Shown piece after piece: positions 31,546 to 58,358 of a stretch of DNA of 64,000 bases (its first letter is position 1; each line of letters starts with the position of its first letter). A program made the translations under genes and the position numbers. Source of the DNA: Tetrahymena thermophila SB210 (Eukaryota > Ciliophora > Oligohymenophorea > Hymenostomatida > Tetrahymenidae); NCBI RefSeq assembly GCF_000189635.1, contig NW_002476317.1, positions 62,001 to 126,000 on the forward strand, written 5' to 3'. The notes beneath the pieces were generated by a model, which saw only the letters and a list, made by a program, of their open reading frames with translations, did no database searches and was not told the origin of the DNA.

Positions 31546-34500
31546 TCAGCATTTATTACTATTTGCAATATCTTCTTCTTACTAAAAAAAAATTTCCATA
31601 AAATTAAGTTCATCTGTTTAATAATTTAAGTATTAATAATTAATTAAGTAAATAAATTAAAAAATATATTTAAAATATTACTATTAAAGTTTTGACCAGC
31701 TTTCTCTTTTAGAAAAATTATATCTTCTTATATCAATGTGATTTACTAACTATTTAAAGGTATTTATTCTAATTAAATAATATTTTATAGTTCAATAAGA
31801 CTATTTGAATAGTCATTAGTATCATAGAAATTATAAAATTCATTTTTTTATAACACTTCTAATGATTTAAGATGACTCCTGACAGATTTAAAATAATTTT
31901 TCAAAATATAGTAATAAGTGCCCTTTAAGTTATAATATTTTTATTTTAATACCGAATAGAACTAAATCAGCTACAAATTTTTTATATTGCCTTCACAATT
32001 TTTTAAGAGAATTTTAATTTCACTCAACAAATATTTGATAGGTGCAATTCTCTTTTTCTATAATAATTAGCATTTAGTTATAAGCTAGAGACATAATACT
32101 TCATATAAAATCATACATTTTGATTTATCTAGAGTTCTAAATTTACTGTTAAAATAGCATTCTTTGTAAACAATAGAAGCTTCTTGTAACAAATCAATAG
32201 CCTAAGTTAAAAGGATATTACTATCTTGTAATTATCCTATCTGAACTGGTGTTTAAATGTTATCTTTTTAATGTTTTTATTTAATATAGAATTTATTTGA
32301 ATAATAATTGGATCTTTTTAGAAGTTCTTAGCAAGGTGATAAATTAATAGAATTATTATCGCTTTCATTATTAGATTCACTAAGTAGCTAATTTATGTAT
32401 AATTAGTATTTAACAATTAAAAAATTTTATTTTTAAAAATTACATTAAGTGAGTACAAGTTTTACAGATAGCTTGGTAATTCAAAGTTTTTTGTAAATTC
32501 CTTCTTTTCAATAAAATGAGTGATATCTTAAAATATCTTAAATTATTCCATATTTTATTTTTAACAAAATTTATAGATTATATTAGCTAATTAAAATTTC
32601 CTTCCTGCATAAATACTTATTAAATTTTTATTTTATTTTACTTAAACAATTAAACTCAAAAATTGATGAAAATCCATATCTAAATATTATTTACGTAATT
32701 CATTTATTTTTTTTTCACTCAACAAGTTTGCTTTTTGCATATACTTCAAAGCATCTTCATATTTACCTTACATCATTAGTATTCTAGCTATATTATTCAA
32801 ACTATTTTATAATTTGAAAACCGCTTAAAATTAAATGAAAAATAAAAATATTTACCATAATCCTACACCATCAAAATGCTGAATTGTCTTAAAAGCATTC
32901 ATAGCAGCGTTATATTATTTAATTTCTTGATCTGAAAATTTATCTTCTTAACCATTATATTAATCTTGTATTCTTTATTAGACTCCAACAACAACTTAAA
33001 ATATAGCTTCTATCAAATTTTTTAATTCTTTTTAAGTTTTTATTTGCCCGCTTTCAATCATTTTGTAAAACTTTAAAATACTAATTAATAAACAATCATT
33101 TTTAATTAAAATTTTGAAAAATATTTAATTTACTTTAATGGCTATGCGCATTGTATAAATTAGTTTAGTATACTAATTGGTATCTCAAAATTGTATTTCA
33201 AAAATTTAATTGTCAATGCAAAATACACTAATACAGTAGTAGCAAAGCAACAACTAATTATTATATAAAATTATATAAATAATTTTTAATTGCTGTCTTT
33301 TGTTTCTTAAATAGCCTAAATCCACTTTTTTTCTGAAAAAGCTATTGCTAAATATCCTACAGTTAGGGTATGTTAAGATTCAAAATCCCCAAAACATATA
33401 TTAATAGGCGTAAAGAGCGTAGTATATAATGTTTTATTCTTTGATATTATTAATTAATATTTTTCATTCATTTTAAAAATATTATCACATCCAGCTTATT
33501 GTAAATTGGTCTAATTTAAAAAGAAAGTCTTATTTAGAAAGTCATTTGTTTCTTCAAGTCTATTTGTAGAATTTTAAAATTCCAAAGTTGTGATATTCTA
33601 GATTTAAGCTTTAAAATAAAAAATTTCTTTATTAACATGTTTTAATTATTTATAAATTATATTTTACTATTTGAAGAAAAAGGATGTGCTAAAACAAGCT
33701 ATGTATAATAACCAACTCCTGTATCAAAATTTTTAATTGTTGGTGCAACTAAATATGCATATTAATCTATTTATTGAGAGCTATTATCAGAAATAGATTT
33801 GTCAATGTAAAACTTATTCTGCAGCGGCTTAAAATCAAAATCAATCCCAAAAATAGCATAAGTTGAGTTTTATTTAGTAAGGGAGTCATATTTTTCAATT
33901 TTATAAGTAAGCGTAGCAAGTGTGGTTTGTAAAACTATATCTATGTAGGGTTGAGATATTGAACTAGAAGTTAAAATAAAAAAAATAAATATATTAAATT
34001 CAGGAAGAGATAAATACATTTTTTGGTAATACTTTCCCATAATATACCAAGGTCTACATCTCCACTCTATAGGAAAAAGCCTTGGCGTATTATAGTATTA
34101 ACAACTACATGGAACAGTAGCGTTTCCACATACTGCACCACTCTATGTCATATATTAAAATCCTCCAAATTAAGAGGGATTTGTAAATAAATATTTCTGA
34201 TAATGCCCATCAGGTTATTTGATGCATTGCTGAAAAGGTCCTCCAAATTTAGAGTTATTTATTATACTACTTACAGATAAGACATTACTATTTATTATAA
34301 ATATTTTTTAAATAAATGTCATAACTATTAACAAGTTTACCTTACTAAAGAATTGAAAATTCCATCTTTTTCCCTGCAATAGTAGAATTTTAAAGATTTT
34401 ATTAAATCATATTACTGATTAACTTAAATTGATTTTGTAATTTAATGAGCAAACATTGTTTAAATTGTGTATTATTTTTATTCTATATTCAGGTCATTCC

Positions 34501-35336
34501 ATTAATTCGTTAACGGACTCATCCATCCACCAATTTAAAATCTTTCTTTTAAAAAAATGAAAATAAGATGAATTACTAAAAGTTTACAAGTTATTTTAGA
34601 TAAATTAAAATTAAACTTGTAGAAGTGAAATAAAGATTTCAATTTAAAATAAATTTAAATAGTATTAATTTCCTAAAATTTTAAATAGAAAGAATATAAT
34701 TAATGAATTATAATAAGTTAGATTACTATAAGTCATATAAGAACTTTAATTATTATAAAAAACATAAGGGCCTATATCATTTATACATTACTAATCCTGA
34801 TTGCATTATTACCATAAATTGCAATATGCATCTTAATCCAAACTAGAATTTAAAAGAAAATTCTATTTTTGAGAAATAGGATCAAACTCTGGCTCATTAG
34901 ATTTGCTTTACCAACTAACTTTTAAATTTAAGAAACCATTATATAGCATATTTAATTACTCTAAAAATTACCTTCCTCTTCAAAAGTGTTATTAAATAGC
35001 AATAAACTATGAAATTTACCTATTACTTAGGCTTAAGAAACTTCTTTTTGCATTGAATGAAATACATCTGTGTTTAAAACGCGAGTTTGAACTGACAAAA
35101 ACCATAAATACCTCTCTTATATCAATTCCTAAAGATTGTTTTATCTTTTGAAATTTATGAATATAATTTATATTTATAAAAATAATTAGTATTTACAACG
35201 GAAGAATGTAAATAAAAACTAATAATAGTGAATATAGCAATATTCCTATTGTGAGTGATGCTATATATGGAATGAAAATAATTATCAGCCTTTAATTTTA
35301 CTCATTATAAATGTGTTTTTTAATATAATTTTTCAT
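31546..35336 (-). CDS. Cache-domain two-pass membrane protein with TPR-like tail, array copy A
   Basis: Putative sensor or receptor. Start MKNYIKKHIYNEQNQRL is followed by a first membrane helix (IIIFIPYIASLTIGILLYSL). The extracellular part contains FGGPFQQCIKQPDGHYQKY, CSCQYYNTPRLFPIEWRC leading into RPWY, then QPYIDIVLQTTLATLTYKIE and later LAHPF. The RPWY and PY(I/V)D motifs and order resemble dCache_1 ligand-binding domains; several cysteines suggest disulfides. The second helix is LFIQFYIIISCCFATTVLVY, directly before KFLKYNFEIPIQY. The cytoplasmic tail has TPR-like helices (SLNNIARILMMQGKYEDALK). Roughly ten short GT-AG introns interrupt it. The final exon, 31613-31546, encodes ELNFMEIFFQQEEDIANSNK plus Cys. 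No kinase or cyclase domain is visible. The family call is solid; the ligand is unknown. Confidence 0.85.
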
Positions 35337-36219
35337 TGTTTTATTAATAAAAATAAATATACCTAAAATAATTATTTCTACTTTTTACTTTGAAATTAAA
35401 AAAAATTAATTATAAAAATATTTAATTGATTGATTAATTTAAATGGATTATTTTTTCGTTATCAAATAATTTCTAAAAGTTCTATCAAAATTTTAATATA
35501 ATTTTTTCTAATGTTTTTTTCAGTAATTTTAAATATATTTATAAACTAATTTTTATCTTATACTAAGTTATTTATTCTTTTATTTTTAATCAAATACTTA
35601 TAAAAGATAATTCTATAATAAATAATGTTACATAATAATTCCTCGTACTAAAGTAATTTATGTTGAGATAATTATTTAACCTGATAGAAGTAAAAAATTA
35701 GAAATATTTAAATAAAGATTTTATTTTTTGTAGAAGAAATTTAAACTTTTTTATCAAACATTTAATCTTGAATTTATTTTTTTTACATATAAAATGAATG
35801 AAAAAAAATGCTTAACTCTAAAAATTAAATGTTAGATTAAATCTCTGATTAAATATCTTTTATTTTTTTTGTTTTTTCAGGTTCGAAACCTTTATTTTAT
35901 GATTTTAAATTTTCTTTAAATTTATAAAATAATATTTATTTCCTACTTGAGAAATAATTATTGGAGAATTGCAATAATATTGTAAATTTAAAGCTTTAAA
36001 AAATTTATATATTAGCCATATATAAATCAATTATTTTTTAATAAAGAGTTATTTTATCACATCATTTTTTTATTATTAAAAATCTTTGAATAGATTTATA
36101 AAAAAACTAACCTTTTTTCCTTTTAACATTTACAAAATCTTTAAAATATTGAATTCAAGGTTAATCACTAATTTTAGAACATAATAATATAAATGTAATA
36201 TATTTTAAGCTTTATATTT
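35337..36219. other. Spacer between array copies A and B
   Basis: About 880 bases of AT-rich sequence between the copy A start and the copy B stop. No intact exon of the family was recognised. Confidence 0.55.
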
Positions 36220-39200
36220 TCAGTGTTTGTGAAAAGTGCTTGAAATATCTTCATACTAAAAAAAAATTTCCATAAAGTTTAGTTCATCTATTTTAATTAA
36301 ATAGTTAATAAAGAATAAATAAATAATTTAAAATATATTTTTTTAAAATTACCATTAAAATTTAGATCAGATTTCTTTTAAACAAAAATTATATCTTATT
36401 ATATCAATATCATTTATTAATTATTTAAAGGTATCTACTCAATAGATATAATATTTTGAAGCTAAATAAGACTATTTGTAAAGTCATTGGTATCATAAAA
36501 ATGCTAGACTTAATTTTTTTTTATTACATTCAATGATTTAAGATGACAACTAACTGATTTCAAATAATCTTTCTTTAAATAGTAATAAGAGCCTTTTATA
36601 TTATAATATTTTTACTTTAATACTGTAAAGAGCTGCATTTTTTGTAAATCTATTTTATTATCTTCAAAAGTTTTTAACAAATGTTTAATTTCTATCAATA
36701 AACTTTTTATAGGTTAGATTCTGCTTTTGTAGATTAATTAACATTTAATAATAAGTATTAGACATAATATTTATTGTAAAATCATATAGCTTTTCTTTTA
36801 TGAAGTTTTAAATTTACTTCTAAGATAAAATTCTTAATAAACAAAAGAAGCTTCTTGCAATAAATCAATTGCTTAGGTTAAAAGAGCTTTATTTTCTTAA
36901 AATTGACAAGTTTGAATTATAGTTTAATTATTAAATTTATTATAATTGTGCCCATGTTTTTATTTTAAATAAAATTTGTTTGAATAAAAATAGGATCTTT
37001 TTAGGATTGCTGAGCTAGTGTGTAAGTTTAATGAATTATTATTATTTTCCTCATTATGTTCACTAGAAAGCTAAGTTATATTTACATTAAATCAAATTTA
37101 AATAATTTAAAAAAATGTTTAAATGTAACTTACATAATTTGAAAATTGGGTTTCTTGATTATTTTATTATTAATAGTTTTTTATAAATCCATTATGATCA
37201 GTATTATTGAGAAAGCTTACCTCATAAAATTTAATTGATTACTCCAATTGCTACTTTTAGCAATATTTATAGATTATGTTAGCTAATTAATATTTCCTAC
37301 CAGCATAGATATTCATGAATTATTTACTTTATTTTATTTAAACTATATGATTCAAAAATTCATAAAATTGAATACCAGAAAACTATACATGCAATTCAGT
37401 AATTTTCTTTTCACTTAATAAATTTGCTTTTTGCATATACTTTAAGGCATCTTCATATTTTCCTTACATCATTAGTATTCTAGCTATATTATTCAAACTA
37501 TTTTAAAATTTGTAGACAATATTTAATTGAACTAATAATAAAATAATTTACCACAATCCTACTCCATCATTATGCTAAATTGTCTTAAATATTTTCAAAG
37601 CAGCTTAATATTATTTAATTGCTTCATCTGAGAACATATCTTCTTATCCATGAGATTGGTCTTAAATTCTTTTTTAGACTCCAACAACAACTTAAAATAT
37701 AGCTTCTATCAAATTTTTTAATTCCTTTTAAGTCTTTATTTACCCATTTTCAATCATTTTGTAAAACTTTAAAATACTAAAAAAACAATCATTTTTAGTT
37801 AAAATTTTGAAAAATATTTAATTTACTTTAATGGTTGTGCACATTGTATAAATTAGTTGAGTATATCAATTGGTATCTCATAATTGTATTACAAGAATTT
37901 AATTATCAATAAAAAATATACTATTACAGAAGTAACGAAGCAGCAGCTAATTATTATATAAAATTCAAAAAACAACATTTAGTTGCTGTCCTTAGTTTCT
38001 TAAATAGCTTAAATCCATTTTTTTTCTGAAAAAGCCATTGCTAAATATCCTACTGTTAGGGTTTATTAAGAGTAAAAATCCCCAAAACATATTTCAATAG
38101 GTGTAAAAAGCGTAGTATATTATGTTTAATTCTTTGAAATTATCAGCTAATACTTTTTATTCATTTAAAAAATACTATTGCATCCATCTTATTGTAAATC
38201 AGTCTAATTTAAAAAGAAAGTCTTATTTAGAAAGTCATTTGTTTCTTAAAGGCTGTTGGTAGAATTTTAAAATTCCAAAGTTGTGATGTTCTAAACTTAA
38301 ACTTAAAAAAAATATAATTTCTTATTCTTTAATTATTTATGATAAATCATATTTTACTGTTAGAAGAAAATGGATGTGCTAAAACTAGCTATGTATAAAA
38401 ACCAACTCCTGTATCAAAATTTTTTACTGTTGGTGCAACTAAGTATGCATACTAATCTATTTATTGAGAGCTATTATCGGAATTAGATTTTTCAATGTAA
38501 AACTTATTCTGCATTTGCTTAAAATCAAAATCAATCCCAAGAATAGCATAAGTTGAATTCTTTCCAGTAAAAGAATCATATTATTCTATTTTATAAGTAA
38601 GCGTAGCAAATACAGTTTGCAGAGTTAAATCTATGTAAGGTTCTGAAATTGAGCTAGAAATTCAAATTAATAAATATTATTTTAAAATTTAAAAGAGAAA
38701 GATACATTTTTTGATAATACTTTCCCTAAAGATACCAAGGTCTACATCTCCACTCAATAGGGAAAAGTCTAGGAGTATTATAATATTAGCAGCTGCATGG
38801 AGATGTAGCATTTCCACATACTGCACCAGTCTACGTCATATATTAAAATCCTCCAAATTGAGATGGATTTGTAAATGAATATTTCTAATAATTTCCGTCA
38901 GGCTATTTGATGCATTTTTGAAATGGTCCTCCAAATTTAGAGTTGTTTATTATATTACTCACAGATAAAAAATTACTTTTAAAAATATATTTTCAATATA
39001 TTATTATTCTATCTATAAATAAGTTTTTTTACGTGATTATATTATTAAAAATTCCATCTTTCTCCCTACTAAAATAGAATCTACAAGATTTTATTAAATT
39101 ATCTTGCTGATTGACCTAGAATACTTTTGTAATTTATTAAGCAAATAACGTCTTAATTGTGTATTATTTTTATTCTTCATCCAAATCATTCCATTAATTA

Positions 39201-40042
39201 GTCATCGGATTAGCCCATCCTTCAGTTAAAAATTTTTCTTTTTATGAAATAATAAATTATATGAATAGTTAAGACTTAAATTTCTTTTAAAAATAATATC
39301 AAACTAGTTTGAATAATAATTAAAAATATTATTCATTTCAATTAAATTTAAATAATTTATTATTTTAATATTTTTTCTATTATTTATAGAGCTAATCAAT
39401 ATAACTATAAAAGGTTAAATAAATAATATTACAGTAAGTCATTTTAGAACTTTGATTGCTATAAAAAACACTGGAACTTATATCCTATATACATTTTTAA
39501 TCCTGGTTACATTAAGACCATAAATTGCAATATCCATATAAATCATAAGTAGAATTTAAAAGAAAATTTTATTTTTGAGAAATAGGATCAAACTCTGGCT
39601 CAGTAGATTTACTTGTCCAGCTAACTTTTAAAATTTAAAGATTAATAAATCACATCTTTAATATATCTAATATTTACCTTCCTCTTCAAAACTATTATTA
39701 AATACTAATTAACTATGAAAACTACCAACTAATTAAGCTTAAGTAACCTCTCTCTGCATAGAATAAGCCACATCCATTTTTAAAAAATTTGTTTGTATTT
39801 ATAAAAACCATAAATATCTCTCTTGAATTAAATCCTAAAGATTATTTTATCTAAAAATTTATATTAATAATGTATTTCTACCAAAAAATAATTTGTATTT
39901 ACAGCGGAAGGATATAAAAAAAAACTAACAATAAAGAATATAGCAATATTCCTATTGTAAGTGATGCTAGATATGGAATAAAAATAATAATTAGCCTTTA
40001 GATTTTCTCATTTTAAATATATTTTTTATAAAATCCATTCAT
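36220..40042 (-). CDS. Cache-domain two-pass membrane protein with TPR-like tail, array copy B
   Basis: The closest relative of copy A. Start MNGFYKKYIQNEKIQRL is followed by the helix IIIFIPYLASLTIGILLYSL. The extracellular domain repeats FGGPF, CSCQYYNTPRLFPIEWRC and RPWY, with a following EPYID-type segment and HPF. The second membrane helix precedes YNFEIPIQY-like sequence and a tail with ILMMQGKYEDALKYMQKA. Exon and intron boundaries appear to coincide with copy A. The last exon, 36287-36220, encodes ELNFMEIFFQYEDISSTFHK plus His. The long near-identical DNA stretches shared with A, including non-coding sequence around the 3' exon, suggest a recent duplication or gene conversion. No obvious disabling change was noticed. 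Confidence 0.85.
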
Positions 40043-41214: not shown

Positions 41215-44200
41215 TCAAATTTTATTCTTTAAATTGTTTTAATCTCTGAATAAAACTTCAGCAAAGTATAAAAAATCTTTTTGATAATTAATTAAAAATA
41301 ATTAATATAAATAAAATAAAAATAAAATTATACCTTAATTTTAAATAGAAGCATTCTTAAAATCATTTATATCCTATTGCAGTATTTCTTACTATCTTTG
41401 TGTTAAAGCTATACTACATTTTTCTAATAATTATAATAATAGTTTCAAAGATTCATATACATCTTAATAGTCATAATTAATTATTTTTTAATATGATGAT
41501 GATGATGATGAATCAAATACAAATTAGTGTCCTAGAGATTTCAAACAATATTTAAGTGATTTCTCTAATTTATTAAATTCTCTATTTAAAATTGCTTTCT
41601 GCAAATAATATTTATTCCATACAATTTCATAAAGTGGGTGTTCTTTAAAAGATGAAAATTATTTATAGTAGATTATTAGATTTTTACATTTATTTAGCAT
41701 CTCTTATATCAAAAAGCCATTCTTATTCATCAATTTACTAGCTTATATTATGTTTAAAATACTTATTATATTACAAAATCTGCATTCATCTATATCTTTA
41801 CTCTAAAAATATATTTCAGATAAATTACTAAATGTTTACTAAGCCTCCCATAATAAATCAGTAGCTTAAACCAAAATATTTTTTTTATACTCTATTAAAT
41901 TATCAGATTATGTTTGACTACTTTAATTTTAACAAATTGTTTATTCCATTTTTTAATTCTTATAAAAATATTTAATAGAATAAAATGTCTCTCTTTTTAT
42001 TTATTAATTATTAAATTAAGGGAGATATTAGAATTATGAAATATTCTATCCATTGAAAGGAGATTAAGTAATACAATTTTTACTCAAATTTGTAAAACTA
42101 TCAACCTATCGAAAACTGTAATCAAAATTAAAATCATTTTTCAATGGATTTTGTATTTAATTATTACAATATTCTATAAGTAAATTAGCAAGTGAAAAAC
42201 TCCTAGAAGCATATATTTTTATGATATTTTTATATTCCTTTTTAAAGCACATATCTTTAATCAATAAAAATTATCCTTATTTTATTTTTGTTAATTAATA
42301 CTCCATATTTAAATTTGCTTTTTGCATGAATTCAATACTCATTTATTAATTTTTTTATGCACGATATATGTTCGAAATATTATTTTAACTATGTTTAAGA
42401 AATAAATTTAATTTATTTAATCAAAATGAATAAAAAGATTTACCAAATTCCAATCCCAGTAATGTTTTCTAAAATTTCAAAATTTTAAAGTGCTTTAAGA
42501 TAAATTTAAATGAGATCATCGTCTTATATCTATTTTTAATCTCTTAACAAAGATAAGATTTAGCAATCAACAAAAGTAATAACTGAATTTATAGCAAATA
42601 TTAAATTTTTTAGTTCTTATTATGTCTTGATTTTCCCTAAGCTTATCATCTCTGAAAATTAATTTATTCTGTTTTAATAAACATTTTATTAGTTAATTAC
42701 ATATTTTTAAATAGAAATAAAAAAATACTCATTAGGTTTAGCTTTATTCAGAAGTGAAATTAGTATATTTATAGGATTATCAAAATTGTATTAGAGTAAT
42801 AATCCTAGAAGCAAGCTTAATAATATAGCACTGAATATTAAACATATTATATATGCAATTATTATAGCATTTTGCATTGGTTTAAATGCTTGAGTAACTA
42901 TATTTGCTTAGGTTTATATGACTTCAGTAGAAATAGCTTTTGCTAGATATCCAACAATTAAATTTTCTTATGTATATAAATTCCCATAACATACTTTGAG
43001 AGTAGAGAAGTAAGTTAAATACTCTTACCCATTTCTAATTATTATTTCAAACATGTCTTAATTCTAAGCAATTAGATTGCATCCAGACTCTCTTATTTTT
43101 GTATTAAGCATGAAGTCAACTTACTTTAAATATTAATTTATCTCTTCTTATTTATTTGTAGAATTTTAGAATTCAATATCAATTATATTTTAAACAGTAC
43201 CTATATTTTTATTTTAAAATAATATGTTAGATACATATAATTTAAGATTTTATTTTGAAAGAAAACTACCATAAAAATTCACAAAAGTTTAAAAATTTTT
43301 TAATTAAAATGAGGTTTTGAAATAAAAATCAACTTTTTTATTTTTTTTTTTTTATATTAATTATATAAAGGCTGTATTTATAAAAAATGACAGTAACAAA
43401 AAAAACTATGATTACCAATTTGCATAGCTAATACTCACAAAATTATTTTTTAAAATAAAAATTATTTAAGAAAAATAAAATTGATTTACCATTATTAAGA
43501 GGATGAATCATTGCTAATAACTAATAATAACCTTAGTTATCATCATAATCAAATGTTTTAGGTGAAACTATGTAAGAGTATTCCAATTCAAAATTATTGT
43601 TTGATGATAACCTTTATTTTATTTATTTAAGATCTAAATCAATAGACTGGACTGCAATAGGTGCCATCTCTTTCTCCTGAGTTATATTCATCTCATTTAT
43701 ATTATCAGTAATTTTATAAGTAATTGTTGTATCTGAAGCATTAGTACTTAAGTCAGAGTAGGGTTCAGAAAAAGTTCTAAATTTATTTATTTAATTTATT
43801 TTTTGACTTATTTTAAATTACAAATTACATTTCATATTCTTTAAAGGATGACCGAAACCATGGTCGACACCTCCAATCAATAGGAAAAAGTCTTTTCACA
43901 TTAAAATATTCACAAGAACATTAACCGCCACAACTTTCTCCATCTTAATCCATATACTAAAACCCATTAAATTAGGAAGGATCAGAGTACTTATAGGAGC
44001 TATACTCACCTTAGTCGTTTTTTGTACAATTAAATGGGCCGCCAAAATCTGAATTATTTATTAAATCTATTTGATTCAATCTCATGCTTTTATTAGTTAA
44101 AAATATTTAATGGAGTAAATTTATATTAATTAAACTCATTCATTACTTAAACTCATTTTATAAAAATATTCCATCTGTCTCGAATGCAATATAAAAAGCA

Positions 44201-45088
44201 AATACCTCTATTTCTACCAAGAATAAATTAGCTAAAAAAGATTTGCTAATTGAGGCACTAAAATTAACAAGAATTATTTTCTTCTTTTATTCATCAGTTA
44301 ATTATTCCCATTTAAATTACTAAGCAGATGACCATGCAGAGTATTAACTTGATTCTAAAAAAAAAATTAAAATAGAATTCATAAAAATAGTTTTATTTAC
44401 CATATATTAAATTTGATTAATCAGACCCAAGATCAACACTAAGATAATTATCTAATTCTGCCTAACACTAAGTTTAGTTTTATGGGCAATTTCTCTCTAT
44501 TAGACTGCAGTAATTATCAATAACGTATTCACTAGTTATTAGAAAATTATACTTTCCATCAGAATAACTGCTTTAATCTGTCTTAAAATCGTCCCAATCA
44601 ACTATTAATAAGAGTAATAATAATAAAGTGGCATTCAAATTAATGTAAAAAGTTACTTATTTCTGTAAAATTATCAACATTTAGTATCATATATTTATTA
44701 AAGAGGGATATGATCTGCTATTATGTTGTAGCTTGTTAAAAAGAAGATATTGTTTGTTTTTGTTAAGATTAGTTTATAACAGTAATGTAATTTCTGTAAG
44801 TCTAATCAAAATACTAAACTAAATTATCCTATCTAAATTTAAAGTAAAAAATATTTTAAGCTTTTAATAAAATTATACATTTTATTATTACACATTATTC
44901 AGGTAGAAGTAATCAATTAGAAACGATTATAGAGCTATACCAGTTATTAAAGGAAATAAAAAAGGTAAAAATAATTTTAAAAACCTAACCTATCTTTCTG
45001 AACAAAATATTTTTTATTTTTTTGCTTTTGTTGTATGCTCTAATATTTTTTATTTGAAATTTAAAGCAAAAGCTGATCGTTTTTCCAT
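41215..45088 (-). CDS. Cache-domain two-pass membrane protein with TPR-like tail, array copy C
   Basis: Start MEKRSAFALNFKQKILEHTT gives a longer basic N-terminus than A and B. It precedes SERQVRFLKLFLPFLFPLIT, where the first membrane helix begins. Extracellular hallmarks are FGGPFNCTKN, CSCEYFNVKRLFPIDWRC, RPWF, then SEPYSDLSTNASDTTITYKI and AMIHPL. The second helix (AYIICLIFSAILLSLLLGLL) is followed by QYNFDNPINILISL. A run of six TCA serine codons lies in the tail at 41495-41511. The last exon gives KDFLYFAEVLFRDQNNLKNK plus Ile before TGA at 41215. Several short introns are present. Close to D and E, more distant from A and B. Predicted sensor; ligand and output unknown. Confidence 0.83.
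41495..41511 (-). repeat. Trinucleotide run encoding poly-serine in copy C
   Basis: A (GAT)n run on the plus strand reads as consecutive TCA serine codons in the frame of copy C (context FD-SSSSSS-YQKIINYD). It is absent from the other copies, so it is probably a length-variable microsatellite inside the coding region. Confidence 0.75.
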
Positions 45089-45919: not shown

Positions 45920-48900
45920 TCATTACTAAAAGCTTATTTTTTCCTTATAAAATACTTCATCAAAGAATATCTAAGCTATTTTAATAAAGATTTTTATTAA
46001 GAAAAAGAAAATAAATTAATTACATTAATTTGTATCATATTTTTATTTGAATCTAATAATGTCTTATAATAGGATCTAGAATTAGTATTAATTCATTTTA
46101 ATATTACAATCTCTTATTAATTATTAAAGCAAAGCTAAAGAATAATATACACTATAATAGTCATAATTACTAATTTTATTTCTTGAAAAAAAGCTTAATC
46201 TATTTTAGCAATTTAAAGATTTCAAAGTTAGAATAATTGATTTCTTAAATTCTTAACTTTCCCTTTTAACTAGAGCTTTTAAATAATAATATTTATTCCA
46301 AACAATATCATAAAGATGGTGTTGTGTAAATTAATTTGAATATTAATAAGACATAATCATATTTTTGCATTTTAGAAGTATTTCTTTAATTAAGTAATTT
46401 CTATTTCCCAATAATTGATTTGCTTCTGCAATATTTAATAGACATAATATATTTAGAAATCTAAATTCTTGTAAATCTTCACTTTTTTAATATATTTCTG
46501 CTAATTCATTAAATATTTATTAAGCTTCCCAAAGTAAATCTATCGCTTGAGCAATAATTATTTTTTAGTTATTATTTGATTATTGGGACATTGATTCATT
46601 CTAAATAATATTTTAACTAAGATAATTTTTTGAAGGATTTTAAAATTTAGTAAAAAACTTTCTTGAAAAAAAATTTTCTCTGCTTACACTTTATAAAATA
46701 TTTTATGAAAAAGATATATTTAAAGATTGATTTTATTGCCACTTGAAGTTTGTAATATCCTATAGTCTGCTGTTAGTGTAATTTAAAGAGTTATCTAATT
46801 CTAAATTATTTTCTTCAAAAGTAAAATAATGCTCCTATTGAATGTTATCTTATTTATTTTTCTTGAGGTAAATAATAAGTAAATTAGCTAACTAAAAATT
46901 CCTTGAAGCATAAATCTTGATTATATTTTTATTTTTAGGATTTTAAGCCATTTCTATTGCAGTTTTTTATGTTTGTTTCTTTTTATTTAGAAGCAAAATT
47001 TCAATTGAGATTAGAGCATTTTACATAGCCTCTATGCTTTTCTTATATTCTTGTAAAGACTGGTACAAGTTTGAAATATTGTTATAACTATTTTTAATAT
47101 TAAATAATAAAAATAAATGCTTTTATGATATTTAAATGTTAAATTACCAAATACCTATTCCTGTTAAATTATCTATTATTTTAAAATTATTAAGAGCCTT
47201 CTCATAAATGTCTATCAATTCTTTTTGCTGAATATCAACTTTATCTTTCTGAAGCTACTCAATTTATATTTACACAAAAGAAATGACAGATTCTATTGCA
47301 AAAATTAAATTTTAAAGCTCATGTTAAGTTTTTATCTTTTTCTGTTTAATTAATTCTGAAAATTGATGAATTCTATTGAAAAAATAAGTTATTAATTTTT
47401 ATCATAAAATTTAATAATAAAATTAATTATTACTCATGCATCTATGCTCTAGAAATGAATTGATTTACTATACTAATAGGTATATCAAAATTAAATTTTA
47501 ATAGGTATAAAAGGAGCTAACTTAATATTATAGCATTAAAAATAAAGCATATTAAATAGGTAATTAAAATTTTCGTTTAAATTGGATTAAAAGTTTAGGT
47601 AACTATATCTAATTATTGTTTTATTAAATCTGTTGAAAAGGCTCTTGCTAAATAACCAAAAATGATACTTTCTTAAACATACAAATTTCCATAACAAACT
47701 CTTAGGGTTTAAAAATAAGTTAAGTATTCTTAACCGTTTTTAATAATTCTTCTGAATTAATAATCACTCTAAAGTATTGAATTACACCCAGAGCTTCTTA
47801 AATCAGTGTTTTGCATGAATGAAACGCTATTTAAATATTAACTTATCTCTTATTGCTTATTTGTCGAATTTGCAAATTCTAGATCTACAATACTTTAGAC
47901 TGTTCCTATAGATATTAAAATTAAAATTATCAAAAATTTTAGAATATGCTGGAAATAGAAATAAAAAATGTTTAGAATTAAATTTATTTTAATGAGTAAA
48001 ATTTTAATTTTAAAATCAATAAAAATAAATAAAAAAACAACCATCACTTAAAGGGTGTGTCAAAACTAAAAACTCATAATATCCCTTGTTTTGTTCATAG
48101 TTAAATGTTTTAGCAGAGATTATGTAAGAGTATTCTTGAGAAATATTAAAACTACTTGATAATCTACTCTAAACTTAACTAAGATCTGTATCAACGGATT
48201 ATACAGCTATTGTTTGCATTTGCTTTTCTATTGATATATTGAGAGGATTTTAATTTTCTGTAATTTTATATGTAATTGTTGTATCTAATGTTTATGTAGT
48301 AATATCTGAATAAGGTTCTGAGTAAGTTCTATTTTTAAAATAAAGATTATATTAGCTTTTAAAATGGTAATTTTACATTTAATATTCTTGATATGAGGAA
48401 TAAAACCAAGGTCGACATCTCCAATCTAAAGGAACTAATCTTTTAACATTATAAAATTAACAATCACACAATCCATTACATTACTCCCCATCCATGTCCT
48501 TATATAAGAACCCATCAAATTATTAAGGGTCAGTATATTTATATTTATTATATTAGCCATATGCATTTTTTGTGCAATTAAAAGGTCCTCCGTACTCAGG
48601 TTTATTTATCACGTCAAATTGATTTAGAAAAATGCTTATAATTTATATATTAAATACATATATATAATTATAATAAGAAAATAAATACTATAGCTGATTC
48701 ATAACAAAGATCCCATCTTCATAAAATCCAATATAATATGAGGAAGCACCTATTTCTTTTAAAAAAGAATTAGCTGTTAAAGATTTGCTAATTGATGCAC
48801 TGAAACTGGTCATTATTATTTTCATCTTTTGTTAATCACTTAGGTATTCCCATTCTAAAGCAAAGGAAGAAGACCAAGATTAATATTAATCCTACACTAT

Positions 48901-49637
48901 ATACATATAATAACATAAAAAAGTTTATTAAAACTTATGATTTAAAAGATTTTTACAGTATATCATCTCTGTCTCGTAAGGTCCTAAGCTTTCTAATTCT
49001 TAAGCAAATTAATTGAAGCAATTTTAATCACTATCACCACACATTTATTCTCTTAAATTGCACCAATTATCCAACACATATTCACTATTTAAAAAAAAAT
49101 TATGCTTTTTATCCTAATAATTCCCCATTTCTAAAATTTGGTCATTCCATGCAACTATTTTAATATATGAAATAACATGGATTAAATAAAATTATTTACT
49201 AATTTACTAATATCAGTGTATCTATCAATATTTAGAACCATGTATTTGTTGAAAATACCTAATATTTATAATTATGTTGTAGCTTATTAAAAAGAAACGA
49301 CTGTTTATTTAGTTTAAGATAAATTTATAATAGAAATATATTTTTAAAAAGTTTATTCAAAGTATTCTTCTAAATTGCTTTTCCTATTTATTATAGTTTA
49401 TTAAAATAATATTTTAAGAGATTCAAAATCTTTTACTCTTTCTAATTTAGAAATTTACATAAAAGAAAGGTAGAAGTAATTTATTAGGAATAATTATAAG
49501 AAGACACCTGTTACTAAAGGAATCAAATATGGTAAAAATATTTTTAGAAACCTAATTTTCTTTTCAGATAATCCAAATGGCTTTTAGCATTGTGATTTAT
49601 CAACTTCTCTGATAATACTTTTAAGTTCTACTTACAT
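45920..49637 (-). CDS. Cache-domain two-pass membrane protein with TPR-like tail, array copy D
   Basis: Start MQVELKSIIREVDKSQCQKP runs into GLSEKKIRFLKIFLPYLIPL and the first membrane helix. The Arg-Cys-Arg-Pro-Trp codons lie at 48406-48420, within the same cysteine-bearing extracellular domain as the other copies. The C-terminal exon encodes QIFFDEVFYKEKISFQQ before TGA at 45920, matching the terminal motif of the family. The tail is helical and Gln/Asn-rich with TPR-like character. Multiple short introns interrupt the gene. Sequence and intron layout are nearest to C and E. No disabling change was noticed, but not every exon border was resolved. Confidence 0.82.
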
Positions 49638-50308
49638 CAATACAAATAATATTTTTATAAATATAATTCAATTTATTAACTTATTGAGTATATTTATTTT
49701 GTACTATTAACTTAAACAAAAATTTTTATTAATGCTATTTTGTATCGCTCATTGAATAAATAAGTCAGTATTATTTTTTCATTTTAAAATAGCAAAGCGA
49801 TTAATTTAATTATTTGGTAGACTTCTCTCTTAAAAAATTTTAAATCTATTTATATAATGATGAATTATAAAAAACAGAAAGCTACTTTTTGCAAACATAT
49901 TAATAAATAAGTTAAATTTTGCATTTAAAAAAATGATAAAATTTTAAAGAAATAAATTTTCTATCTACTAAATACCAGATGATAAGATTACACTTTATTT
50001 TACAGCTATTTATAGCGAGTACACAAAATATGTTGAGTTCTATTAAAATAAAAATTTTTAAAAAAAAATTAATTATTCATTCACCTCATCAATCTATATT
50101 AATTTAACTTGATTGTGAGAGTTTCTATCAAAAATAAAATATTTTTAAATTAAATATTACATACAAATACATAAAATTAATTGATTATTTTTTTATTTAT
50201 TTAAATATATACTTATTTATCTTACTAAATGAATTAATGTAAATTATATAAAATTATTTATCTATTTTATTATTTAAGCTATTGTAATAAATTTATTTAT
50301 TTATTTAG
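49638..50308. other. Spacer between array copies D and E
   Basis: About 670 AT-rich bases, with a (TTTA)n-like run at about 50283-50306 next to the copy E stop. Nothing else was seen. Confidence 0.5.
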
Positions 50309-53300
50309 TCAACCCACTCTGTCATTTAATATTTGTCCAAATGAATAAGATTTTTTCTGCATATATTTAGATTAAATGCTATTTACATTCTGTTTAATTT
50401 TTTTCTCTTATTATTCTTAACTTTAAAAAAAAAACTCATCAATTAATAATAAACCTATTTTTATGTTTAAAATTAAATAAATTGTTTTAATTTGGATTAG
50501 TATTTACTTTAACTTTCATTAGATTTTGATCTGAAATATTAAATATCTTGCTAGAGCTTTTGTTTTTGATGTAATGTTAGCTAAATGCTTAAGTCTGTGA
50601 TTAATTTTTATAACAATATTAAAGATTAATAAGTAATATTATAGTCAAAACTTCCAATTTGTGTTGAATATTGTTAATGACCTATTTAATAATTAAGTGA
50701 TTTGAGTGTGTTGATTAATGATAGGTTTAAATTAGACATATCTTTGTTCACATAAGCCTTTTAAAGATAATATCTACTCCAAAGAATATTGTAGAGAATG
50801 TATTTCTTAAACTATTAAAAATTTGAATATTGTAATAACATAACTTTAGTTTTAAATAAAATCTCTTAAATTATATAATTATTGTTTCCTTTTAGCTAAT
50901 TTGCTTCTGCAATAAGCAAAATAGTTAGAATATTTAATGACCGTAGCTCATTAACATCATTATCATTGTAATTTATGCTAGACAAAATATTAAAAATTTA
51001 TTGTGATTCCCATAATAAATCTATTGCTTAGGCTAAAATTACTTTTTTATCATCACCCATTTAAGATTGAGGTGACAGTTTGTAACTGATGTTAAGGTTA
51101 TCTTAAATATTTGTATTGCAATTTTTTATGTAATATTTTTTTGAATAGAAAAAATTTCTTTTTATTCCTTTGGAAATTATTTAAGAAGAGGAATTATTAC
51201 AATTTAAATAACTTGATTCAGCTCTATTTCCTGATAATAAGTCTGAGTTAATTTTTAGAAATTCCGAGCCATTTAAATTACTTTCACTAGCTTCATTAAG
51301 CGTTATTTTTTTGTTAATTGATACTTCTTATTTTACAATTGAGCAAGTTTAAATGAGTAGATTTGCTAATTAATAATTTCTTGAGGCATATATTTTCATA
51401 AAATTCTTATATTTAATTTTTTAACTCATTTTTGTTAGAGAAAAAACTTATTTTTTTTTCATTGCACTCAGTTATTCTTCAATTGTTAATATAGCGTTTT
51501 ACATATACTAGATACTAAGCGAATACTCTCTTAAAATATAATATAAATTAGAAATATTATTTTAACTTTTATGTTTTTTAATAAAAAATTAATCAATTTT
51601 AAATATTTATTTTCATCAAAAATCAAAAAAAAAAAAAAATAAATAAATACCAAATTCCAACTCCAGTTAGGTTATTTAAAATTTAAAAATTTATTAAGGC
51701 TTATTTGTAAATTTCAATTAAATCCTGCTCCTTAATATCATGCTATTATTTTAAGATCATCTAGACTTAATTCTCAATAAAATATATAACGGAATCTATA
51801 GCAAATATCAAGTTTTTAAGTTCTTGTTGAGTTTTGATCTATCCTTTTCTTATCATGTCAGAAAATGTGTGGACTCTAAAATTATATATTAGAAATAGTA
51901 TAGTAATTGAATTTTTATTAGTTTAACCTTACTCTTGTATTTATGATTAGCAAACAAGCTAATTTAGGATATTTATAGGAATATCAAAGTTATATTTTAA
52001 GAATTTAGCAAGTAGCATGCTTAGAGCAATACTACTGAATACTAAGCAAGAAGTGTAAGTAAGAAATAGAGCTATCTTCATTGGTGAAAATCTAATAACT
52101 ACAATATCTAATTATGTCTTGATAACTTCAGTTGAGATTACTCTCGCCAAGTAACCAAATATTATATTTTCTTATGTATATAAATTACCATAACAAACTC
52201 TAAGCTAAGTAAAGTATACAAGATAATTTTAACCATTTTTTTAAATAGTTTTAAATATTTTTTAATCTTGTAAAAATTTTTCTGCACCTACTCCCCTGAT
52301 ATCTGTGTTAAGCATAAAATCTACATTTTGTAAATACTCATTAATTTCCTCTTGTTTATTTGTTGAGTTTTAAAATTCTATATCAGTTATATTTTAAATC
52401 GTGCCTGTTTTAAAATTAAAAAACCATTTTAAAATAATCCTTTAAAAATTATTAAATTGGTTTTTTATTAATGAGTTACCGTTGCTAAGCGGATGTACCA
52501 TTGCTATCAGCTCGTAGTAGCCTTAATTTTCGTCATAGTTAAAAGTTTTAGGCGACACAATGTATGAATATTCTAAACTGATATTTTAACTATTAGATAA
52601 TCTTTATTTAACTTAATTAAGTTCTAAATCAACGGATTAAACTGCAATAGTGTTCATGTTTTTTTCTTATTCTATATTATATTCATTTTAATTTTATGTA
52701 ATCTTATATGTTATCGTTGTATCTGAAGAATTTGTGGTTAGATCTGAATAAGGTGCAGAAAATGTTCTAATTTTATACAAAATAAAATTCCTTATAAAGT
52801 AAATACATTTTAAATAATATAATTCAAAGAGTTAATAAATAAATACATTTGATATTCTTTATAAGAAGAATAAAACCATGGTCTACATCTCCAATCCAAA
52901 GGCAATAATCTCTTCATATTATAATATTGACAGCTACATGAACTATCTTAGCATAGCTCGCCATGGTTATCCATAAATTAAAACCCATTAAACTAAGAAG
53001 AATCTGTAAATCTGTATTTATTATAATTTCCACTTTGATTTTTAGTACAATTAAAAGGGCCGCCATAGTAAGGTTGATTTAATATATCAAATTCTTATAT
53101 TCTCACACTATATAGATTAAAGATAAAGTGACGAATTTATAAAATTATTTTACCTTAATTCATTAGAAACAAATATTCCGTCAGATTAAAATGTTATATA
53201 ATAGGATTGGACTCCTATTTCTTTTAGGTTGGAATTTGTTGTCAAGGCTTTCGTAACGGAAGCACTAAGAGATGCTAAAATAATTTTTATTTATTACTCT

Positions 53301-54076
53301 TTAGCTAATTATTCCCATTATAAGCAAAGAGAAGAAGACCAAGATTAATACTAGTACTCTTCTAAATATATTTAAGAAGAAAATATTATTAACTTATTAT
53401 TGAAATATTGAATTTATTATACTATACATCATTTCTGTAAGATTTGGGATGAATTACTATTATCTTTAACTAAATTAATCAAAACATTTTAAATCATAAT
53501 CATGACACTATTGGTGCAAAAGATTACAATAATCATCAAGAGTGTACTCATTAGATATTAAAAAATTATATTTGCCATCTACATAGTTTCCTCTTTCTAA
53601 AATCTAATCATCCCATGAAACTGTCATAATAAGTTAATAAATGTAAAAGCATTTTCTAATTAAAAGTAAAGTTTACTTATGTTATTAAAGTTATTAGCAT
53701 CTAAAATCATTTATTTATTAAAATTTCCTATCATCTAAATTGATGTAGTTTCTTATTAAAAAGAAAATGTTGTCTATTTCGACTAAGAAAGAGCAGTAAT
53801 TTAAATATAGTTTTTGTAAGTTTGTTCAAAATATGACTCTAATTTATCCTACCTATTTAATATTTCATAAAAAGGCTATAAATTATTTAGTTTTATTTAA
53901 TAATAAAACATTATTTTATAATACATGAACTAAAGGTAGAAGTAATCTATCAAAATTATTTGAAGGCAAACCCCTATAGCTAGTGGAATCAGAAAAGGTA
54001 AAAATATTTAAGTAAATCTTCTCTACTTTTCAGAACATTAAAAAATACATTAAAGCTAATGAAAAAGCTTCTTCAT
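50309..54076 (-). CDS. Cache-domain two-pass membrane protein with TPR-like tail, array copy E
   Basis: Start MKKLFHQLQCIFQCSEKQRR is followed by FTQIFLPFLIPLAIGVCLQI, the first membrane helix. The extracellular hallmark codons for Arg-Cys-Arg-Pro-Trp are at 52876-52890. The terminal exon begins LLLIDEFFFQSQEQQEKKIK and continues further than in other copies, to TGA at 50309. That C-terminal extension (...SYSFGQILNDRVG) is the least certain part, because it depends on one acceptor choice. The rest follows the family plan: Cache-like ectodomain, second helix and TPR-like tail, split by short introns. Most similar to C and D. Confidence 0.8.
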
Positions 54077-54425
54077 CTTTAAGCTTATTTTATTGAAAGA
54101 AACTCCTTTTTTGTAAAAACTAAATTTTTTATTTGATAAATTTGAAAAAGATAAAGAGAGAGTTTATATGCAAATTAATATTAAGCTTTTATTATGTAGG
54201 GAATTAATTTGCATTATATTAGATTGACTTTAATTTACAGTTAATTTAATTTAAAATAAAGGTTATTTATTAATTCATTGATGGATAAACAAAAGTTGTT
54301 AATAAAGTTAATTTCAAAGTATGATAAAAAAATGACTAAATAAATAGACATATACTTTAATTTAAAAATACACAGCATAAGTTCTATCTATCTTGAGATA
54401 TTTTTTATATTCCTGATTTTTTGAA
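54077..54425. other. Shortest spacer, between array copies E and F
   Basis: About 350 AT-rich bases holding the copy F 3' flank and the copy E promoter region. No other feature was seen. Confidence 0.55.
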
Positions 54426-57400
54426 TCAGTTTTAAATCATTGTAACTTTTTTAAGCTAATGTTAATCAAAAAATACCTCTTCAAAATACACATCATCTAT
54501 TTTCGTAATTTTATAATAAATTGAGAGAAAACAAACATAACAAAAAACTTACACTTTTCTTAGCTTTGCTTTGCTAAATTTTGAAAGTCTTAATCTAAAT
54601 ATTTTTTTTGGCTAGAATCAAGTGTTATTTAATTAATTTTAATTATTTTTTAAATACCTTTTAAACAATTTATTGTATTAAATATATCATATTTAGCTAT
54701 TTTATTATAGATTTATTAGGAATCTTATTTTTAAAGATAATTAAGTCCTTTTAAATAGTTTCTGAGAGATTTGGGATAATTTTTCTTTTTCAGATAATAC
54801 TGAGCCTAAATAGTATAAGATTTTTATAATAGAATTTAAAAGGGTATTTGTAAATAGCTGGCATTTTTGTGACTTTAAACAATACTATCTAATTATTCTA
54901 ATTCTAATTTCATAACTTTTATTATTTCTTTAATAACTATTTATCTGTTTTTCATAAGATTATGACATTCAACTAGCTCTTACAAAGCTAAAATTTATAC
55001 GGTAAAGCCATTTATCACTTTGAGTAAATTTCTTGATTTGTTACTTTAAGCTATCTTTTTCATTATAAACTTACATTCATATAATAATTCGCATGCTTAA
55101 GATAGGATAAATTTTTTATCTTAAATATTAGCAGAATATTCATTAATTTAGTCATAGTTGCTATTCTATTCTTAAACATTTTGATATCTTTTTTGAGAAA
55201 AAAACTACTCCCTTGATGCAAAAAAATTTTATTCACTCTCTTTTAATAAAGTACTTTGCTTTAGTTATGTGCTCATTTTTTGTTAATATTGTAAACTCAT
55301 GCTATTAAAACCAAATTAATTCTATTTTTTTAGTAGTAAAAAAGAATTAAAATATTTAAATAGTTATTTAATAAAAAATACATTTGTTATTTCAAGTTTT
55401 TCATTTGAGTTTGCAATTTGATTTTAAGTTCTGAGATTTTTTATCTTCTAAAATAAATCTAAAAATTCATGATTTTTGTTTAAATTTTTTGTATTTACTA
55501 TAAATTTAATTAATAATTTTGCTAGAGTGTACTTTCTGCATGCATGGAGTTTCATGAATCCTTAAAAGCTATGATCCATGCAAATATTACTTAATTTTTA
55601 CTAATCATTTTATCCTAAAAGATACTTTTACTTTATTTGATCATACATTTATTCAGAAATAATATTACACTATTATGAATAAATAATTCCTTCTTTTAAT
55701 TGTTTAGATTAAGAGCTCAAGTTAGATAAATTGTTATAACTTTTCAGATTAAAATTGAAAATAATTTATTATGAATAAACGCAATACAAATATTTTAATA
55801 ATTTTACCAAAGAGCAAGCCCTGCATTATTTTAAAATATAGTAAAATCCTAAATAGCTTTTAAGTATATTTCTTATTACTTTTACAGATTACACTTTTTC
55901 AGGTCATCTATTTGTTATGTTAACTCTGATTTAAAGTTTAAAACTGCTTGATTTATGGCCTAAAGCAATATCTTCAATTCATATTAAGTTTTCATTTTTC
56001 CAGAATCAATCAATTAATTAAATTAATATATCCTTTTTTTCATAAGTAAAATCCTTTGTAGTTGAAAAGTAAATTTAGTTTGATGGTTCAATTTAATCAA
56101 TAAATGAATTTATTTATTTATTTACTCTGTTGATTTAGCTTCGTTGATAAATGAATTTAGTATTGAAATAGGAATTTCAAAATTAAATTTAAGAAACTAT
56201 ATCACAATAATACTTAGAAAAAAGAAAATTAGAAGGAAAATGCAAAAAGTAATAATTATCCAATTTTGCAGTAGTTTTTCTGTTTCAATTTTGATTTCAT
56301 CTAAAACATTTAAATTATAATGAGAGTTCAATGAATTTACTAAATAGCCTACTATTAAAGTGTATTAATTATATAAATCTCCATAACAGACTTATATTGT
56401 TGATACGTACGTTAGAAAGAGTGTTTAATTTTTATAAATATTATAAATTTTACTATTTGGTTTTTATATCTTACAACCATTTTCTCTTATTTCCCTATTT
56501 GTAAAAATACTCCCAAGTTACTATATATATTATTCTATTTCTTCTTCCTTATTTGTAGAATTACTAAACTCTAAATCTAAAATACTAGTTGCATTTACTT
56601 TAATTCATTTGAATAATTATTTAAATATAATAAAAAAATAAATTTTACCATTCATCTATGGATGACTTATTGCCTAATACTCATTATATAATTCAGGCTA
56701 CAAAGGAACTGGCTAAGAAGGAGCTATTATATAAGAATATTCTTCTTGGCTGGATTAAAGTTTTATATTTTATTATAAAATTTGTAAATTTATATCTATC
56801 CCAAAAACTCCGAGCAAAGTGCTATTTATATTTGGAATAAATTCAAAATTAGATTCTTAATTTTAATTTGTTTAATTTAATATTCTAATAGTAGCAGTTG
56901 CCAAAATAACACCTGTTAAAGCGTCAACGTATGGATTGGTATAAGTCCTATCATTTTAAAAGTCAAATTTTATTTTTAAAAAAATTTTATTTTTATTTAC
57001 ATGTAATTATATGCTCCATTTATATACCAAGGTCTACATCTCCATTCTACAGGAAAAAGCCTTTTAACATTATAGAAAGAACATTAACACTCATCAGTAC
57101 CAGGTTAAATACATGATACATTGTTTAAATCTTTTTTATAAAATGCTTCGAATTGATCAACATTTGTAAATTTATATTTTTTATATTATCCATTCACTCG
57201 TGTGCAATCAAAAGGCCCTCCAAAATAGGAATTATTAATAGAATCAATCTCCAAAGATATTCTAATTTATATATTGATAAAGCAATCATCGTAAAAATAT
57301 TTTGTAATAAAAATTAATTTTTAAAAATATTAATTGAGAAGGAATGGATAAAAAATTATTTTTAAGTTTAATCATTATTAAATTGAAAAAAGTTTCTAAT

Positions 57401-58358
57401 TAACTTACTGATAAGTATTTAATAGCATTATCCCATCATCCTAGAAGTTTATATAAATAATTTTTGATTATACATCTAAGAATCTTGAATTGTAAGATAT
57501 AGACACTTGTAAGGATTTAAATAAAAAATACTTCATCATTCTTTACTTCTATAATTCAGTTAAAGAACTCCAAAGATACAGCTAAGAAGATGAAAAAGAT
57601 ATATACTACAAAGCATCTATTAAAAAAATAATATAAAATATATTAAAAGAATAAGATATTTATTTACCATATGCTTAATCGGTTAATTTTGGATCATCAA
57701 TAAAATAGGCTTCAACTTATTTTTAACATAATTCGTTATCATTGCATTTTTCATAATATGGGCACATTATTTCATTAGAATAATCATTTGTAATTTTTAC
57801 GTTTTGTTAGTTATCTAAATTTTCCATCCTTTAATAATTCCAACTTACTATATAAAAGTTAAAAAAGTAAGTAAATGATTTATTTGAAAAAATGGCTTAT
57901 TTTTAAAATTATTTTTACCTAAATTTTCTATTGGCGTAAAAAAAGTTTATTTTAAAAATTAACTCTAAACTTAGGCGTTTGTTGTAAAAATTTAAAATGA
58001 AGTTAACATTCTTTTTTTCTCTGCTTCATTTTTTTAAATCAGATACCAAAGTTGATTTTCTTAAATCTCATCCATTAAGTCTTGGTAGCTATTGTTAAAA
58101 AAATGATAATAAAATGAGGATATTTATTAAATTCAATAGCCAAATCATTTACGATTATTGATAAGCAATTAGATTGAATGCGAAATAGTAGCCTATTAGT
58201 GTTGAAATAGTTAAAATAAAGTAGGGTATGAATATAGTCAGAAGTCTTTTCTTTTTCTCGTTTAATTTAAAATATTTTTTATTTAATTTAAATGATTTTA
58301 TCTTTTCTTTAAATTATTAAGAAAGGTTTTATTAGCTCTTTTTTTTTATACTTTGCAT
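54426..58358 (-). CDS. Cache-domain two-pass membrane protein with TPR-like tail, array copy F
   Basis: The most divergent copy, with the longest basic N-terminus: MQSIKKKSQQNLSQQFKEKI, then KLNEKKKRLLTIFIPYFILT into the first helix. The ectodomain keeps CQCSFYNVKRLFPVEWRC and RPWY (codons 57027-57041). The second helix, LLQNWIIITFCIFLLIFFLS, is followed by FLKFNFEIPISILNSFIN, very like copy A at the same point. The terminal exon, 54496-54426, encodes DDVYFEEVFFDQHQLKKVTM plus IQN. Several short introns interrupt it. Its edge position and divergence suggest that it is an older member of the array. Confidence 0.83.

Follow-up and report, generated by a model that had tools for sequence, protein, structure and literature searches.

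The window analysed here, a stretch of 64,000 nucleotides of Tetrahymena thermophila SB210 (contig NW_002476317.1, positions 62,001 to 126,000), contains an array of six paralogous genes, c1 to c6, on the minus strand between 31546 and 58388. On balance we favour the view that the array codes for two-pass membrane receptors with a dCache ectodomain of the amino-acid type that would signal through a TPR-like tail. The first-pass annotation of this DNA had described a six-copy family of Cache/TPR membrane sensors, a reading that was right in outline and is partly supported by our results; the number six is right for the window and covers only a subset of the family, which has at least 26 members genome-wide. 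To this outline we add the genome-wide family, the residues of a putative amino-acid site, a probable relation to alpha2delta and a C-terminal motif.

A tandem array of complete genes

The six models were obtained with a gene finder written for this analysis, trained on five long open reading frames (ORFs) of the window, and with spliced protein-to-DNA alignment. Each is complete and open from ATG to TGA under ciliate code 6, with 10-12 exons. The genes are direct repeats (n=6) spaced by 4.2-5.1 kb, and the direct-repeat array seen at first pass is borne out by full-length models with identical intron phases in six of six genes (2,1,1,2,2,1,2,2 for the first eight introns and 1 for the last). 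Its end points had been placed at 31546 and 58358, which are the c1 stop and the second Met of c6. All 58 introns are GT..AG and 51 of them measure 46-85 nt; a 33-nt in-frame intron in the c6 model (55601-55569) is doubtful. Pairwise protein identity is 73% for c1/c2, 51-53% among c3, c4 and c5, and 30-32% for the remaining pairs, levels that indicate homology and not chance. In the longest ORF of the window (1,434 amino acids), 137 codons are of the kind that table 11 reads as stops and table 6 as Gln, and for this reason the window DNA is read as ciliate.

The ectodomain resembles dCache_1 sensors

Homology of the ectodomain to dCache_1 is very probable, an assignment supported by sequence and not yet by structure. 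At E<=1, all PDB matches of a profile of the six window ectodomains were bacterial sensors (5/5, two of them PctA; best 5.3e-5), and the same held for a 15-copy profile (8/8; best 9.5e-5) and for a nine-copy profile built without window sequences (5/5; best 0.0016). The entries other than PctA and alpha2delta/CACHD1 are named chemotaxis proteins or sensor cyclase, and we take them to be dCache_1 proteins too. Searched as a single sequence, the whole c6 ectodomain found alpha2delta-1 best (0.0012) and then PctA (0.12). A 134-residue piece of c6 around the putative site gave 20 matches at E<=10, namely 13 to alpha2delta-1 (1.1e-5 to 4.7e-5), four to bacterial chemoreceptors (PctA at 0.0021), one to CACHD1 (0.086) and two to RGS4 chains (0.2 and 0.26) that we take as chance; this piece was picked after the first alpha2delta hit, and its E-values flatter somewhat. 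The match to alpha2delta was seen with c6 only. Bacterial alignments span WRCRPWY, PYxD and, when longer, (I/V)DxxL in collinear order, and the alpha2delta alignment spans PYxD and (I/V)DxxL, with the WRCRPWY part only as a weak separate piece. The Cache-like character that the first-pass annotation had given to the ectodomain is thus upheld by the profiles and the alpha2delta-1 match, which point to the dCache_1 type.

Several results weigh against this assignment. The check by hidden Markov models that had been proposed came out negative, as the Pfam dCache/sCache models matched none of 15 ectodomains at E<=10, and Pfam Cache models matched none of the six full-length window proteins. The c1 ectodomain alone had no PDB match in a single-sequence search, and the top match of c4 alone was an unrelated DUF1851 protein (0.19), with chemoreceptors behind it (0.21-1.1). 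The part of the ectodomain that can be aligned to known Cache sequences is short, about 90-100 of some 490 residues. The AlphaFold model of the distal ectodomain piece was of low confidence, with a predicted local distance difference test score (pLDDT) of 45 and a predicted template modelling score of 0.27, and the structure prediction suggested at first pass neither confirmed nor refuted a Cache fold. Its input was the longest contiguous piece (window 48043-49152), which runs from exon 3 to exon 6 of c4 and includes three in-frame introns; the alignment had 14 more rows, each a window exon or an in-frame pair of exons. Exon 3 of c1, c2, c3 and c5 was excluded, in c3 and c5 because it was misplaced in trial alignments. 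In addition, an NCBIfam scan gave no Cache match in family proteins, and PF02743 run on the genome matched only four other genes, none of them in the family. A scan of bacterial genomes for family relatives produced 11 pattern matches, of which none was confirmed.

A putative amino-acid site

The amino-acid motif of dCache_1 reads YxxxRxWY, then Y, then D (PMC9901441, PMC11245519; these and the other papers are cited from excerpts), and the site residues named for PctA are Y121, W128, Y129, Y144 and D173 (PMC11245519). On the alignment of the six-copy profile, PctA numbering was set by a chain offset of 8 (chain W120 = W128). R126 of PctA we take to be a site residue as well, from its place in the motif. 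Among the 24 aligned copies the equivalents of R126 and W128 are kept throughout (24/24 each), that of Y144 in 21/24 and that of D173 in 23/24, and the Y129 equivalent is Y in 20/24 and F in 4/24; R126, W128, Y/F129, Y144 and D173 equivalents occur all together in 21 of 24 copies. Two points speak against an amino-acid site: the Y121 equivalent is Y in one copy and I, L, V or T in the other 23, and the Y144 equivalent is absent in 3/24 (L030, L033, L027). The family as a whole lacks the full dCache_1AA motif, which includes Y121, and judged by its residues it would be better described as AA-like than filed as a dCache_1AA member.

The gabapentin arginine of alpha2delta-1 is R243 of a triple-Arg motif (PMC11308618), and the third Arg of this motif in alpha2delta is a dCache_1 motif residue (PMC9901441). 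In our alignment the gabapentin arginine falls on the R126 equivalent of the family; at this place c6 EWRCRPWYINGA resembles DVRRRPWYIQGA of alpha2delta-1, a piece that alone scores -0.5 bits. From the kept site residues and this alignment we predict amine-carboxylate ligands, with a specificity that would vary among copies. A 103-bp piece at C186:192365-192467 (L043:3365-3467) is 95% identical to window 57083-57184, within c6 exon 5; it lies on another contig, near an ORF with kinase-like letters, and may be a gene fragment that has strayed there or a product of the assembly.

Membrane topology and conserved cysteines

By hydropathy both transmembrane segments, TM1 and TM2, expected from the first-pass annotation were detected in 6/6 proteins, which share a plan of a 23-48 residue N-terminus, TM1, an ectodomain of about 490 residues, TM2 and a tail of about 470 residues. 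There is one additional hydropathy peak in c2 and two in c3; the latter (1.92, 1.84) are as high as TM1 and TM2 of the same protein (1.74, 1.71), and c3 therefore has the least clear topology of the six. The Lys and Arg counts beside TM1 point to an N-terminus in the cytosol for c3-c6, and do so less clearly for c1 and c2. Together the six ectodomains contain 55 N-glycosylation sequons where shuffles predict about 37, and the tails 33 where about 29 are expected. This excess lends weak support to the topology; it is uneven, with no rise in the c4 ectodomain (5 observed, 5.4 expected), which counts against it.

The cysteine-bearing nature of the ectodomain was as described at first pass, with 10-11 Cys in each window copy. 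Across the 24 aligned ectodomains there are ten near-invariant Cys columns, six of them at 24/24 and the rest at 23, 22, 21 and 21. The Cys at c4 ectodomain positions 98 and 105 are jointly absent from the three aligned C234 copies, which suggests that these two may form a pair.

The TPR-like tail and the C-terminal motif

TPR_12, TPR_2 and TPR_10 of Pfam each match 4/6 window proteins (best 2.9e-7), and of five tails taken from other arrays four had a match to some TPR family, in agreement with the TPR-like tail proposed at first pass. The full-length profile matched 22 PDB sequences at E<=1, of which 16 are consensus or designed proteins (mostly TPR), five are bacterial sensors and one is an RNA export adapter. 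An AlphaFold model of the c4 tail (window 45923-47371, two in-frame introns included, 11 alignment rows) is all-helical with pLDDT 62.6, and the best 50 Foldseek matches of this model are mostly TPR-type proteins. The TPR domains of OGT, LGN and sNASP, helical repeat scaffolds like the one predicted for the tail, are among the top matches; however, these are weak (best E 4.8e-3) and show no sequence relation, and the family has only one well-supported TPR repeat. Against a TPR tail it can be said that the Pfam matches listed lie below the curated cut-offs and draw mainly on one repeat, that the consensus and designed TPR matches of the full-length profile fall on the same single repeat, and that Foldseek gave no TPR match at E<=0.001. 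No kinase, cyclase or methyl-accepting chemotaxis protein (MCP) output domain was found beyond chance level in the Pfam and NCBIfam scans, as the first-pass annotation had held; some matches bearing such names occur at chance level, as with MLKL_N (0.013) in one family member.

The terminal mini-exon reported at first pass is borne out, and in all six window genes the intron before it is of phase 1. The proteins have a C-terminal motif of approximately ELxFxE(V/I)FF, present in 26/26 genes found. Across these the Glu is invariant, position 4 is F in 25 and I in one, position 8 F in 24 and L in two, and position 9 F in 20, Y in five and I in one; examples from the 20 genes beyond the window are ELHFFEVFFK, ELNFYEIFFE and EPYFFEVFFK. 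The motifs come from gene models (10 genes), from a scoring scan trained on those ten (15) and from a pattern in L041 (one). In the scan the best antisense control scored 9.0 and the hits of family genes at least 11.3, and motifs were assigned to genes by position. Such constancy in proteins often about 30% identical makes the motif the best clue to the output, of which we propose that it is a part. TPR proteins such as LGN can bind their own tail, and the partner of the motif may be the protein's own tail or another protein. In the c4 tail model it sits in a low-confidence part. An FFAT-type signal was considered for the motif and dropped, as it misfits the FFAT core. One extra C-terminal motif (LVEFFEVFFESKNQEK, then a stop) lies between two family genes of contig C103 (L037, near C103:167572) and is perhaps a relic of a lost copy.

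Genome-wide family, tree and selection

The genome was searched with the c3 and c6 ectodomains and with the tails, and the census proposed at first pass gave at least 26 genes on four contigs: six on the window contig C214, 15 on C103, four on C234 and one on C208. This lower bound derives from WRCRPW-exon matches. All 15 genes of C103 share one strand, in a single tandem array that spans 79 kb. Tail queries gave two additional weak matches on contigs C17 and C114. Ectodomain statistics refer to 24 of the 26 genes, C103:181778 and C234:49029 being without a model; L034 was excluded as a duplicate of g234a, which was used. The model of C234 gene b (g234b) holds one in-frame stop, real or a model error; this codon was replaced by X for the alignment and dropped for the tree. 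C234 gene c is truncated where L041 ends.

The tree of the 24 ectodomains shows expansions within arrays; it takes five contig-label changes, where shuffled labels take nine on average. The branches of c6 and C234_b are long, which makes their placement unsure. The ratio of non-synonymous to synonymous substitution (dN/dS) is 0.28 for c1/c2, 0.21-0.28 among c3, c4 and c5 at dS values of 1.4-1.9 that are near saturation, and 0.23-0.61 in nine C103 pairs, where the highest value rests on few changes. It is below 1 in 12/12 pairs plus c1/c2, which fits purifying selection. The comparison of ectodomain and tail suggested at first pass gave 0.22 and 0.34 for c1/c2, and whole-region dN/dS does not support positive selection on the ectodomain. 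Four C103 ectodomains (L018, L023, L024, L025) are 88-94% identical, and this array may still be expanding or converting.

Relation to known systems

The closest eukaryotic likeness is to dCache_1 of alpha2delta-1 and CACHD1, as seen with the c6 core, whose match in alpha2delta-1 (1e-5) lies in the first dCache. Unlike those proteins, the family combines a single dCache-type ectodomain with two TM segments and a tail predicted to be cytosolic, and the VWA domain that is inserted in the first dCache of alpha2delta/CACHD1 had no match in the Pfam scans of the family at E<=10. The C-terminal end of alpha2delta is anchored by glycosylphosphatidylinositol (PMC9901441). As to PctA of Pseudomonas aeruginosa and its dCache_1AA relatives, most of the R126, W128, Y129, Y144 and D173 equivalents are kept in the family. 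Bacterial chemoreceptors have their sensor between two TM segments, as is predicted for the family. The family differs from dCache_1AA receptors in the loss of Y121 (23/24), in large non-aligning Cys-rich parts and in having a TPR-like tail, with no MCP signalling domain found. The same genome has other Cache genes (L003-L006), three in tandem on C9 and one on C17, that code for membrane proteins with dCache_1 matches (PF02743 at 1.3e-6 to 2.3e-4, below its cut-off) and N/Q-rich ends. These show no TPR tail in partial models, were missed by the family queries and constitute a second Cache group, for which no output domain is known.

Each module is known, and the combination of a dCache-type ectodomain, a TPR-like tail and the motif in a large ciliate family is the novel part. 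A literature search on Cache, dCache_1 or TPR and ciliates, at title and abstract level and with most subscription journals uncovered, did not find the family; the term "undescribed" used at first pass is thus not contradicted within that coverage. In the excerpts cited, dCache among animal proteins is known only in alpha2delta and Cachd1 (PMC9901441), and the Cache domains reported from plants and fungi are confined to histidine kinases (PMC4822843). Tetrahymena is a model of chemoattraction, including that to peptone amino acids, for part of which the seven-helix receptor Gpcr6p has been proposed (PMC3226668). If our interpretation is true, a 26-gene eukaryotic family joining an amino-acid-type Cache to a scaffold tail would represent a further output for this sensor, and would supply concrete receptor candidates, expected to bind amino acids and perhaps gabapentin.

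Proposed mechanism and alternative explanations

From these data we infer a chain of events in vivo, from topology, disulfides and ligand class to location, signal transfer, partner and physiological role. A double-Cache (dCache_1-type) sensor would be held on the extracytoplasmic side between TM1 and TM2, with as many as five disulfides probably lending it stability. The ligand, an amino acid or a similar amine-carboxylate, would bind the kept site, and ligand-driven movement would pass through TM2 to the helical TPR-like tail. The tail, together with the C-terminal ELxFxE(V/I)FF peptide, would then bind or release a partner in the cytosol, through which the signal reaches motility or feeding. 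A receptor set with differing ligands would have arisen by duplication in tandem and later divergence. A bolder version, which we put forward tentatively, is that this large ciliate family consists of single-gene amino-acid chemoreceptors, with a sensor as in bacterial receptors and the alpha2delta gabapentin site and a peptide of the TPR-like tail that docks to or leaves a common partner, and with no kinase, cyclase or seven-helix receptor involved.

The same fold and ligand class could instead face the lumen of food vacuoles or endosomes, where the proteins would report amino acids from digestion and recruit trafficking factors by the tail. Their membrane topology would be identical to the plasma-membrane case and the aromatic-acidic C-terminal peptide could be a sorting signal, but the size, tandem order and divergence of the family are more suggestive of a repertoire that senses many external cues, and we regard a luminal role as rather unlikely. 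We give less credit to auxiliary subunits of the alpha2delta/CACHD1 kind, in which the ectodomain would bind a channel or receptor and control its delivery, with amino acids as modulators only. This explanation gains weight from the c6-core match, the closest PDB relatives being alpha2delta-1 (13/20) and CACHD1 (0.086); however, no VWA domain appeared in the Pfam scans, and the two TM segments, the large tail predicted in the cytosol and the 26 genes do not fit it.

Improbable, too, is a degenerate array in which some copies are dead or are non-binding decoys that keep fold and scaffold. Y121 is gone nearly everywhere, Y144 is absent in three copies, a stray motif lies between C103 genes and the g234b model has its in-frame stop, but all six window genes are open, dN/dS stays below 1 and Cys and site residues are conserved. 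Very improbable, finally, is that the RxRPWY-PYxD-D likeness is convergent or a short shared motif and the ectodomain has another fold, for example that of a ciliate surface or adhesion domain. The silence of Pfam, the short alignment, the pLDDT of 45 and the lack of a match for c1 alone would be in line with this; against it, three profiles, including one built without the window copies, match only bacterial sensors at E<=1 over about 90 collinear residues located between two TM segments, and the c6 core matches 13 alpha2delta-1 sequences at about 1e-5, a result that lowered the weight given to convergence.

Coordinates and other sequence features

Table 1 Features of the six-gene array (window positions; motif letters refer to the translated exon)
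Feature	Position	Strand	Remarks
c1 gene	31546..35336	-	11 exons, 1030 aa; predicted TM1 - dCache-like ectodomain - TM2 - TPR-like tail
c2 gene	36220..40042	-	11 exons, 1036 aa; 73% identity to c1
c3 gene	41215..45088	-	10 exons, 1046 aa
c4 gene	45920..49637	-	10 exons, 1040 aa
c5 gene	50309..54076	-	10 exons, 1060 aa
c6 gene	54426..58388	-	12 exons, 1072 aa; start Met 58388 or 58358
c1 exon 5	34033..34287	-	FPIEWRCRPWY; putative amino-acid-site core
c2 exon 5	38721..38975	-	WRCRPWY
c3 exon 5	43829..44086	-	WRCRPWF
c4 exon 5	48377..48634	-	WRCRPWF
c5 exon 5	52847..53107	-	WRCRPWF
c6 exon 5	57001..57261	-	WRCRPWYINGA; with next exon aligns to first dCache of alpha2delta-1
c1 mini-exon	31546..31613	-	ELNFMEIFFQ
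c2 mini-exon	36220..36287	-	ELNFMEIFFQ
c3 mini-exon	41215..41276	-	FLYFAEVLFR
c4 mini-exon	45920..45975	-	QIFFDEVFYK
c5 terminal exon	50309..50454	-	LLLIDEFFFQ and longer end
c6 mini-exon	54426..54496	-	DVYFEEVFFD

In the genome (101 Mb in 445 contigs) a GGGGTT array gave 4,052 + 4,512 matches; the matches listed lie at the start of contig C4 and near position 465.6 kb of this contig, and such arrays would fit a macronuclear assembly of the Tetrahymena type. Just upstream of c6 there is an AT-rich two-copy direct repeat (58645-59605) with a period of about 525 bp and copies that are 81-94% alike.

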